From NCBI GenBank assembly GCA_905160935.1, contig CAJHZI010000459.1:740001-804000 (forward strand): 64,000 nt of DNA, given 5' to 3'. The translations under genes and the position numbers were made by a program. This DNA comes from Enchytraeus crypticus (taxonomy: Eukaryota; Annelida; Clitellata; Enchytraeida; Enchytraeidae). Below are positions 7,314-53,689 of this stretch, piece by piece. How positions within the stretch are numbered: position 1 is the first letter of the stretch; each line of letters begins with the position of its first letter. The notes beneath the pieces are model-generated. The model saw only the letters and a list, made by a program, of their open reading frames with translations. It made no database searches and was not told the DNA's origin.

Positions 7314-10300
7314 TTAGGAATGATAGAATCTCTCAAATCGATTGTGCCGAATTTCTGCATCTGTAATGACACCCAATATTTGCTTGATCCGAGGCCCACA
7401 ATGTTTTAATTCCATTAGTTTTTTCATTAACTCCGGCACCTTGATATCATCATCATTTATTCTATCAGAACCATCTATTAACTTAATTTGTTTCTGATAG
7501 AGATTGTTTATATTCTGAAGATTCTCAAGTTTATTAGTGTCTGGATTACTAAAACTTCTCTCGCCCATAATGAGAAATTGTACGTATTGCTCGAATGCGT
7601 CGTTGTATGCAAGCATGGAATTTCTTCTCAAAAAGGCTCCGAATTTTGCGCAGCTATTTGTTATTTCCTCCTTCTCCTGTTCATATTCTATTTTGCTCTG
7701 AGTTGCGGTGTATAAACTAGACTGCAGAATTTTTAATCTCCCCTCACCAGATTGTAACATAATTTTTACGTTTGGATCTTCGACGATTTTCTCTACTTCC
7801 TTGAATTCGTAGATAACATTATTGTGATATGTCCAATGACACCCACATTTATCACATATCCCATCGCTATTAATCGTGCTACACTTTTGCGAAGCGGATC
7901 CAGAATTGTCTTGTGTTGCCGCTAACGCTTTCCTTTTGAAAGAACACTTAGGATTATGGCATATAATATAGGGATCAGGCACTCCTTGAGCAACCACATG
8001 AGTTTCTTTGATCATCAATTTTGATTTCCATTGTTTATTCTCCGCAATACAGTGATTTATATCCTCTATTTGACGCTCGATTTCTTTCATATTTTTCTCA
8101 ATGTTAAGGCTGATGTTCGCCAGGAGTCCAGTCATCCTATTGGTCATGGCTCTGGCGGAATTTAAAGAAACTGTGTGGATCAAATCATGCGGATCACGGT
8201 TAGAAAGACTTTCAATAAGACGGTTTGTTTCTGCAACGGATTTGTTCCAGCTTTCACGATAACTAGATAGCGATATGTTATGCTTTTCTCTCAGTTCTAC
8301 ATTTTTGTGATAGATACAAAGATATCGAAAGGCTTCGTTGTCAAAACAGTACATATTGTCTTTTGATAATTTAACATCTATCGAAGACGTTTCCAACAGA
8401 GGTCTAAGCGGAACCAGAGTATCTCCAGCAGTGTATCCGGTTGTTCTGCTGTTAGTGAAGCAAAAAACGACATTGCACGCTGCGTCCTTGTGCAAGTGAG
8501 TGAAGAATTCCTTAACACAAAACTCAAAGTAATTTGTCAACCTGGAGTTGTTTGGTTTTAACAGTATACAAATTCCGTGTAATTTGTCAATTTGATGAAG
8601 ATAATTTACTATCTTTTCAAAGTTTTCGATATCTCGATCAATGCCTCTAGTGTCTCCAATGCCTGGAGTATCAATCAACCGAATGTGTCGATCTCCGTAC
8701 ACGAATCTATATGCTTTTGGCTCTTGTGTTGAAGATTCACCTATTGAGGAAAAACGCTCATCTTTACACTGGCCAACAGAAATAGGTTCGCAAGTCACGC
8801 CATATGTTATAATGAAAAACGAAGGTATCAGGTAAACCAGATCGTATCCTAAAGCTGCGTCTAATGAATTAAAAGATGCATAGTTAGCAATGCTATTAAT
8901 CCAAGTCGATTTCCCAACACCAGTTTCACCAAGAACAAGTATATTTGTACATTTAACTGGTACTAGCTTTTCGAGGAAGTCTTCTAGAGTTTCTTTATTG
9001 TAAGATGTAAACACTTGACCATGCTCTTGCACGTGACACTTAAATATGAAATTCTGACACGGTGCTTCTCCACACGAACAGTAGATAGTCTTCCGTTGAA
9101 AGTCGTACTCCAGAATCCCATGGCAAGTGTCGCAGTTCCAGCGCCGACGGTTCTGTGGACAAATACCATTAAGGGAATTGGGACAAGGTAATTCTACATA
9201 GGCGTAATTCAAAGGTTTATTTTTCATATTTAACCGAGCTATGGTCGATTTAGCAATATCGAGAAGAGCACATTTTTGCATCTTCGCTAATACATCATGT
9301 GAAATATAGGCTCCAGCACTGTAATGGCAAATTCTAATGTCTTCTGGTAATTGTTCACTTTTCTGTTGATTCGGGCAGAGCTCAATATCCACAGCTATTC
9401 CTCCGACAGTTCCCCTGGAATTAATTTCTTTTACATTCGCGTTAGTTGTCAAATCAGCTACATTTTTAAACAAACTCAAAAAGAGATCGCGATTCTTTTC
9501 AAAGGATTGTGACGCCTCGCTAATCTTGTAAAAAAAGATGTAGTAATCAGATAAACCGCTACGATTTCTAACTTCTGCCACGGATTCATCTTTGGCCAAG
9601 CATTTAACACCATGGCTCTTTAAGCTGCGAATAAACGATATATGCTCTGATATTTTTACAGTGTTTATTTGAAACTGCTGCAGTGTGTCAATCTCATGTT
9701 TAGCATTAATTTCTTCCAGTCTCTTATTTTCCATGGCGCGTTGGATTCCTCTTCTGCAATTTCTCACATAATCTGCCATTCGATTTTGCCACTCTAGCCA
9801 AGAATTAGTTGATTTCAGTATTTCATTCATTTCAATGTTGATTTCATCGGAGACTAGCTTAGTGTAGCTTTTGAAGATTTCATTAAATGATTTGACAGAT
9901 TTTACGAATGCATCAATAGTGTCAAGGAGTTCAATAAAATCATCAGTTAGGTATGCAGCATTCTCGTCCGCTAATATCGTATCTCCCTGACGATCAATCG
10001 CAACTTTGCTCGAATGTATACTTATCAAACAGGAGAGAGGGTACAAAATATAGTAGAGACGATACAGCTTAAAATCTTCGTTATTGGACTGTTGCTTCAT
10101 GTATTTAATTAATCCGCAAATGTTTTTATCGCAGGCTTTGTCAATATTGTAATCGGAGTAGATGGAAATTTTGCAGCTATTTAGTTCAGAAAGCAATGCT
10201 TTTAGCTCATCTGATGAATCATTGGGAGATTTCATGTACTCTGCAATTTGTTCTAAAGTTTGACTGAATTCTGCTTTTTGAAAATTGATTAGGACATCTT

Positions 10301-53689: not shown

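Follow-up and report, generated by a model that had tools for sequence, protein, structure and literature searches.

The window analysed here is a 64,000-nucleotide stretch of the genome of the annelid Enchytraeus crypticus (GenBank assembly GCA_905160935.1; 524 Mb, 802 contigs), C366:740001-804000, and it carries two receptor genes, A and B, on the minus strand. A and B are probably members of a family of type I membrane receptors, arrayed in places and dispersed in others, in which a V-set immunoglobulin (Ig) head is shared and the remainder, with its fused effector, is specific to the class, following the logic of paired receptors. As described by an earlier sequence-only reading, both genes have a signal peptide, two Ig domains (Ig1, the distal head, and Ig2), a membrane helix, a tail ending NVEPDE at a phase-0 donor and a small 0-to-1 linker exon. 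The exon models combine open frames with splice sites and passed through a phase and stop check; splice phases outside the window were read by eye. Contig labels (C366, C789, C338 and so on) all refer to the same assembly, and copies named in kb (594-930 kb) are given by their C366 positions.

The Ig1 family in the genome

The sequence-only reading had proposed a genome search for further Ig1 exons, and these proved numerous. The Ig1 protein of A, used as query with a threshold of E<=1e-5, matched 32 places, of which at least 30 are counted as family copies. The 30 copies are spread over eight contigs: C366, C789, C338, C457, C324, C242, C159 and C421. Twenty-three of them, including A itself, are 73-100% identical to A, one degenerate copy is 65% identical and six copies on C338 are 50-53% identical. 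Ig1 has the usual Cys, Trp, Cys, and 43 of its 104 positions are invariant across 22 rows. Of the 22 places that Ig2 of A matches, 20 are found 3' of a same-strand Ig1 copy, at most 5 kb away. Copy numbers are possibly inflated, the assembly perhaps holding both haplotypes in places, because identical-score matches occur on C738 and C776 and again on C175 and C776.

A shared head and separate exon histories

By medians, Ig1 is the part of these receptors kept most alike across contigs. Synonymous and nonsynonymous divergence (pS and pN) was compared for 22 open Ig1 rows, 13 loci having both Ig1 and Ig2. Over these 13 loci the median pS is 0.29 in Ig1 and 0.55 in Ig2, and the median pN 0.07 and 0.31, in a comparison that takes no account of synonymous constraint. 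Receptor A and the CARD-type receptor on C789 differ by a pS of 0.22 in Ig1 and 0.60 in Ig2, and for A and C242 the values are 0.17 and 0.68. The likeness follows the exon closely. A block round Ig1 is alignable in all 276 pairs of 24 copies, with a median length of 329 nt against an exon of 315 nt. In binned counts, 263 of the 276 pairs have a block beginning no more than about 40 nt from the exon start, and 256 have one ending no more than about 30 nt from the exon end; some neighbouring copies align across 450-1600 nt.

Approximately unbiased (AU) tests were made on 14 loci; the Ig2 sequences of L016 and L017 are clipped at the locus end in these tests and in the pS/pN set. The Ig1 data reject the Ig2 tree (log-likelihood difference 101.7, p 7.8e-8) and the Ig2 data reject the Ig1 tree (129.9, p 9.6e-6). 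Since the trees reject each other, the two exons have different histories. Recombination has taken place between them.

Effector classes sit differently on the two trees. The Ig2 tree places five jacalin loci together (support 50; 80 for four of them) and groups four C789 copies with C242 (support 93). On the Ig1 tree, which had been suggested earlier as a comparison of Ig exons with effector modules, the effector labels are scattered: 12 changes are needed, with a minimum of 6 and a shuffled mean of 14.1, and a count as low was reached in 10 of 200 shuffles. Jacalin is the one label that is clustered there, with 3 changes against a shuffled mean of 5.7. The count covered 28 rows; L019 and L032, which have stops, were omitted, and L015 and L022 were labelled unknown.

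Modules behind the Ig1 copies

A 3' module could be assigned for 17 of the 30 Ig1 copies: jacalin in six, GTPase in three, RING-SNTX-GTPase in one, CARD-like in two, an NHL-like propeller in three and a second propeller type in two. The idea of different cytoplasmic modules behind a common front, put forward earlier for A and B, is supported and reaches well beyond these two genes, with at least six module kinds. Fourteen of the assignments were made by reading the sequence: jacalin in B and at 814, 650, 690 and 930 kb; A; GTPase at 720 kb, 594 kb and C421; and C789:159010, C457, C159, C338:2515835 and C324. Splice phase, order and recurrence suggest that each gene is joined into one spliced protein.

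The placement of modules is strongly oriented. Within 20 kb 3' of Ig1 on the same strand lie 6 of 10 jacalin, 4 of 19 GTPase and 2 of 23 CARD2 matches, against expected values of 0.006, 0.011 and 0.013; within 20 kb on the opposite strand the count is zero for each of the three. This control used 30 of the 32 Ig1 rows, omitting a fragment of the degenerate copy at C366:496094 and a 34%-identical match on C217.

The second jacalin exon, Jac2, has 10 genome matches, six of which (B and five others) lie 6-18 kb 3' of Ig1 copies on C366. The order Ig2, transmembrane (TM) helix, Jac1 was read at four loci besides B, with Jac2 also present at two of those. The Jac1 acceptor is of phase 1, and conserved, in all five loci read.

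The GTPase exon has 19 genome matches including A, four of them behind Ig1 (A; C366:720 kb; C366:594 kb; C421). In the three GTPase-type receptors the match to A's last exon starts at about residue 380 and is limited to the GTPase part; Ig1 is followed there by two other Ig-like exons and then by the GTPase exon. The 720-kb and C421 receptors show a TM helix, a tail with a phase-0 donor and a GTPase exon with a phase-0 acceptor. Two tails of the GTPase-type receptors end CDEIEK or LNETDK at the phase-0 donor. The other 15 of the 19 SNTX/GTPase-type exon matches stand away from Ig1 copies, several in clusters (C461, C776, C213, C402, C738, C625).

At C789:159010 two CARD-like exons, CARD1 and CARD2, both starting in phase 1, stand behind a duplicated tail exon. 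The tail exon and its flanks are 97% identical between the two copies (L047:5370-5669 and 6471-6770). CARD2 scores 22.3 bits for PF00619, below the cut-off of 23.9 (E=1.3e-4), and the CARD1 exon has no Pfam match at E<=1. CARD2 has 23 genome matches, one of them 12 kb behind the C242 Ig1 copy. The genome Ig1 search gave no match on C303 or C256, which also have CARD loci. One of these, L054 (C303:172201-181200), holds both CARD exons and, next to a hydrophobic stretch, a tail-like one, and may be a CARD receptor with another ectodomain; the tail-like match holds one stop, and part of it may be intron or decayed.

NHL-like propellers are found in C457 and C159 and a second type in C338:2515835 and C324, these last two being 31% identical to each other. 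The Pfam matches of the first kind are all below cut-off, and the single member of the second kind that was scanned had no match. All four propeller exons start in phase 1. The upstream donors fit in C457 and C324, and a 0-to-1 exon intervenes in C159. A further NHL-like match lies 7.9 kb behind the Ig1 copy at C789:253324.

NHL-like propeller exons have undergone a very large expansion, with at least 132 genome-wide (132 of 330 candidates scored). Their proximity was counted for 34 of the 132 rows and 14 of the 30 Ig1 copies. Five of the 23 CARD2 exons are followed on the same strand by such a propeller at a distance of up to 5 kb, with none 5' and none on the opposite strand; within 12 kb the counts are seven 3' on the same strand, two 5' and none opposite. 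An NHL-like propeller open reading frame (ORF) also lies in the window at 62716-63291 on the minus strand, 3' of the 814-kb Jac2, and is in parts 36% and 29% identical to the C457 and C159 propellers. Since the 814-kb Jac2 carries a terminal stop, this ORF was ruled out as a piece of that receptor and is a separate gene or a remnant.

Structure of receptors A and B

Receptor A consists of ten exons and receptor B of nine, both frame-consistent. Their internal exons have AG/GT borders and compatible phases, with no stop before the last exon. Between the two genes Ig1 is 73% identical (E=2e-58) and Ig2 66% (E=4e-51).

Table 1. Exons of receptors A and B (window coordinates)
Feature	Position	Strand	Remarks
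Receptor A signal-peptide exon	22432..22504	-	start ATG, ends in phase 1
Receptor A Ig1 (V-set head)	19814..20128	-	phase 1-1; V-set 33.7 bits, cut-off 26 (surrounding ORF)
Receptor A Ig2	19174..19518	-	phase 1-1; Pfam ig 20.2 bits, below cut-off 21.8
Receptor A membrane helix TVWIWIVSLVVIIGVIIVIAVF	18010..18105	-	phase 1-1
Receptor A tail exon	17511..17629	-	NVEPDE end at phase-0 donor
Receptor A linker exon	16291..16354	-	phase 0 to 1
Receptor A RING-like exon	14883..15179	-	phase 1-1; 60% identical exon at C625:514105
Receptor A 38-nt exon, RING-SNTX1 join	13377..13414	-	phase 1 to 0
Receptor A SNTX1, first MACPF/SNTX-like exon	10941..11297	-	phase 0-0
Receptor A last exon: rest of MACPF/SNTX-like region, DUF7656, AIG1-type GTPase	7314..10445	-	stop near 7314
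Receptor B signal-peptide exon	53583..53670	-	
Receptor B Ig1	51288..51602	-	phase 1-1; Ig_3 32.4/30, V-set 31.3/26 bits/cut-off (surrounding ORF)
Receptor B Ig2	50047..50379	-	phase 1-1; 66% identical to A Ig2
Receptor B membrane helix	46110..46193	-	phase 1-1; similar helix in four jacalin paralogues
Receptor B tail exon 1	45575..45781	-	phase 1-1
Receptor B tail exon 2	44876..45108	-	NVEPDE end at phase-0 donor
Receptor B linker exon	41816..41882	-	phase 0 to 1
Receptor B Jac1 (jacalin exon 1)	37978..38169	-	phase 1-1
Receptor B Jac2 (jacalin exon 2)	33358..33812	-	terminal, contains stop

A PDB profile search with Ig1 matched many Ig chains, the best being FGFR3 (E 1.1e-9). The same search with Ig2 found no match at E<=5, Ig2 of B matches no Pfam family at E<=0.1, and an AlphaFold model of Ig2 from two rows is all-beta with a predicted local distance difference test (pLDDT) score of 66.8. 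Among 1598 candidate public proteins, none matched the ectodomain and tail of A at E<=0.001.

The sequence-only reading took A into a RING-like finger followed, tentatively, by SNTX and GTPase regions. Open frames and fitting phases bear this out, with the addition of a 38-nt exon that had gone unmentioned. A direct splice from RING to SNTX1 is ruled out, as phases 1 and 0 mismatch without this exon; its 3' part and donor are conserved with C625 (83% over 48 nt). In Pfam the RING-like exon reaches 19.2 bits for its best RING family, below the cut-off of 27, and by our reading the usual histidine is missing. MACPF_SNTX scores 17.7 and 19.7 bits in two separate exons, also below its cut-off of 27. 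The last exon exceeds the cut-offs for DUF7656 (41.1/27), MMR_HSR1 (31.2/21.9) and AIG1 (27.2/27 bits). Among 7999 public candidates scored, one metagenome protein, P0001, is a relative of the SNTX-GTPase ORF, being 30% identical over 77% of the query and carrying the same DUF7656 and GTPase families.

For B, the predicted jacalin-like domain is encoded by two exons that together score 25.6 bits for Jacalin PF01419, above the cut-off of 22; a correction is that B has two tail exons. Retroelement-like ORFs, by our reading, lie among the receptor genes, including the introns of B (window 27736-31464, 36025-36465, 42553-43491, 47660-49361 and 56159-57971). The last introns of B hold two 16-nt tandem arrays (window 33941-34220 and 37104-37468), whose consensus units are mutual reverse complements save one base.

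The shared tail had been described earlier as a fixed docking exon. The phase-0 NVEPDE tail is present in both A and B, but its constancy did not hold up: distal Ig1 is the most constant part, and Ig2, the helix and the tail vary by effector class. EPDE occurs in A, B and the 650-kb copy, and a degenerate TKPDK in the 814-kb copy.

Possible capture of a RING-SNTX-GTPase gene

Two relatives of the RING exon of A came out of the search; they lie on C625, and SNTX-GTPase exons follow each of them on the same strand. The genome Ig1 search gave no match on C625. At C625:514105 an ATG stands just ahead of the first cysteines of the RING exon, preceded by an in-frame TAA at a distance of six codons. 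By eye, receptor A has TTT at the position of this ATG, an upstream frame that is open and a phase-1 acceptor. The simplest reading is that the RING-SNTX-GTPase part of A was a stand-alone gene, captured and brought under receptor splicing. The direction of change would then run from stand-alone gene to receptor part.

Weighing the alternatives

A number of observations weigh against a family of fused receptors with a homogenised head. All the receptor-effector fusions are proposed from genomic DNA, 13 of the 30 Ig1 copies are without an assigned module, and three assignments come from coordinates alone (jacalin at 625 kb, CARD at C242, propeller at C789:253324). The jacalin linkages on C366 are tandem duplicates representing few independent events, and the tail path from helix to Jac1 was traced in a minority of the jacalin paralogues. 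The RING, MACPF_SNTX and CARD scores are all under the curated cut-offs. At C789 the phases of TM donor (0) and tail (1) disagree, which leaves the model short of an exon, and in the C338 receptor a helix was looked for and none was found. Modules also occur within 20 kb 5' of Ig1 on the same strand (jacalin 4/10, CARD2 3/23, Ig2 2/22, GTPase 0/19); such neighbours are expected in arrays, so it is orientation and order, not distance alone, that carry the module assignment. As to the head, A and B show no Ig1-Ig2 gap (pS 0.23 and 0.26), nor do B and the 930-kb copy (0.32 and 0.29). In the 930/814-kb pair identity is 97.1% over the Ig2 stretch, 85.0% over Ig1 plus its 5' intron and 87-90% over the rest as far as jacalin; the exchange in this pair most likely touched Ig2, not Ig1. 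Gene conversion may be what keeps Ig1 alike.

Four other explanations have been weighed against these data. Short receptors and separate effector genes could have been duplicated as linked pairs and never fused, which is unlikely but has points in its favour: besides the genomic nature of the evidence, an ATG lies near the Jac1 start in four of five loci, jacalin, GTPase and RING-SNTX-GTPase relatives occur on contigs with no Ig1 match, and Botryllus encodes linked receptor and HECT ligase genes (PMC12065747). Against linked pairs, helix, tail and linker phases fit the effector exon in A (RING), in B (jacalin) and in two GTPase types, and by eye in C457, C159 and C324; no ATG opens the 690-kb Jac1 exon; none precedes the first cysteines of A's RING exon, unlike that of C625; and helix and Jac1 are only about 2 kb apart in the 930-kb copy. 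Strong purifying selection, reaching synonymous sites and acting with no inter-gene exchange, could also keep Ig1 alike. The low pN and the invariant positions of Ig1 agree with it, as do the two pairs in which Ig1 is no more alike than Ig2; it is nevertheless improbable, since it would not make the Ig1 and Ig2 trees reject each other and does not readily explain why, in one set of genes, the pS of Ig1 should be about half the Ig2 value.

A self-marker or allorecognition system, with the shared head binding homophilically or to a partner on adjacent cells, is distinctly unlikely. Similar V-set heads in arrays with varied outputs would suit it, and the Botryllus histocompatibility locus also has arrayed Ig-bearing receptors; the Botryllus allorecognition proteins, however, are marked by polymorphism (PMC12065747), whereas the distal domain here is the least variable among paralogues. 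There is finally very little probability that the family is mostly a decaying tandem array with few working genes and many pseudogenes. Stops in 2 of the 30 Ig1 copies, which also count against a working family, a TGA in the 639-kb jacalin exon and the retroelement-like ORFs in the introns of B speak for decay, but the other 28 Ig1 copies are open, the exons of A and B are open with consensus splice sites, and median pN is below pS for both Ig domains. A family of receptors with a shared head and class-specific effectors remains the preferred reading.

Comparison with known systems

A literature search, judged by titles and abstract openings, found no description of this receptor family. Vertebrate paired receptors (Siglec-11/16, CEACAM1 and its relatives, CD300A/C) show a similar design: they are clustered Ig-superfamily proteins whose distal V-set domain is homogenised by conversion and whose signalling part differs. 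The receptors here, as predicted from their exons, are likewise arrayed type I Ig-superfamily members, and a distal domain is kept alike among members with different intracellular parts, A/B and B/930-kb being exceptions. In Siglec-11/16 gene conversion covered a region that takes in the V-set exon, and the binding preferences remained similar (PMC5701461). By analogy with this pattern, the receptors here would share ligands and differ in response. The vertebrate tails are of ITIM or ITAM type (immunoreceptor tyrosine-based inhibitory or activation motifs), whereas whole domains of several kinds are found here, and the present family is spread over eight contigs. What sets it apart from paired receptors is most likely that its effector domains are built in.

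The Botryllus fester proteins and fester co-receptors (FcoR) also form large arrayed families with a V-type Ig domain, C2-type Ig domains and differing tails, but FcoR has a sushi domain and tails with ITIM, hemITAM or SH2 (PMC12065747). No sushi match was found in the four A/B Ig ORFs scanned, nor in one further Ig-like exon included in the scan. COX1 reads well under the invertebrate mitochondrial code: by our reading AGA/AGG at 14 positions fit Ser and 20 ATA positions fit Met. In ascidian mitochondria AGR is Gly, and in cnidarian mitochondria AGR is Arg and ATA is Ile. Its fit to the invertebrate code speaks against an ascidian, echinoderm or cnidarian origin, and COX1 looks annelid-like; the receptor family is therefore probably neither the Botryllus nor the Hydractinia system. 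The Ig-like domains of Hydractinia Alr moreover lack the hallmark Ig residues that Ig1 retains. A likeness of another sort is found in the NLRs of fungi and plants, which combine one sensor platform with interchangeable effector domains. The NLRs are intracellular NTPase sensors, whereas the receptors here are surface Ig proteins whose sensing end is kept alike.

A possible receptor platform and its meaning

A more specific proposal, offered tentatively and at somewhat less than an even chance, is that the family is a germline platform. One V-set head would be kept alike by exchange between genes, and interchangeable built-in effectors would be attached through phase-compatible exon docking, with stand-alone genes captured, as proposed for receptor A. 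The effectors would be CARD-like pairs, the AIG1-type GTPase, RING-SNTX-GTPase, jacalin and two kinds of beta-propeller; on this proposal, with the same reserve, the animal would vary the response and not the recognition. An immune or allorecognition role for the family is conceivable.

On the preferred reading of the family, whether or not the platform proposal holds, the machinery might work as follows. Ig1 exons would stay alike through gene conversion or unequal exchange, and by this likeness the receptors would retain the same or overlapping ligands. Binding of a ligand would cluster the cytoplasmic module and produce a class-specific response. In CARD-type receptors the clustered CARDs could nucleate a death-fold assembly, and in GTPase-type receptors the AIG1-type GTPases could oligomerise. 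The RING-SNTX-GTPase part of A-type receptors might be kept at the membrane until engagement, and jacalin and propeller modules might recruit or sense partners. Capture of a phase-compatible module behind the tail would be the source of new outputs. We infer the functional steps from what these domain families do elsewhere, and this too counts against the preferred reading.

Diversity of immune receptors is usually sought at the end that recognises. In this family the distal domain varies least, and at least six kinds of intracellular end appear to exist, which under the platform proposal would be the reverse of an antibody-like repertoire. If this picture is confirmed, a ligand shared across classes, single transcripts running from Ig1 to effector and conversion tracts in populations are predicted. 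The family would then offer a clear case of surface receptors gaining effector genes by exon capture, and a natural series for how one recognition event yields different outputs.

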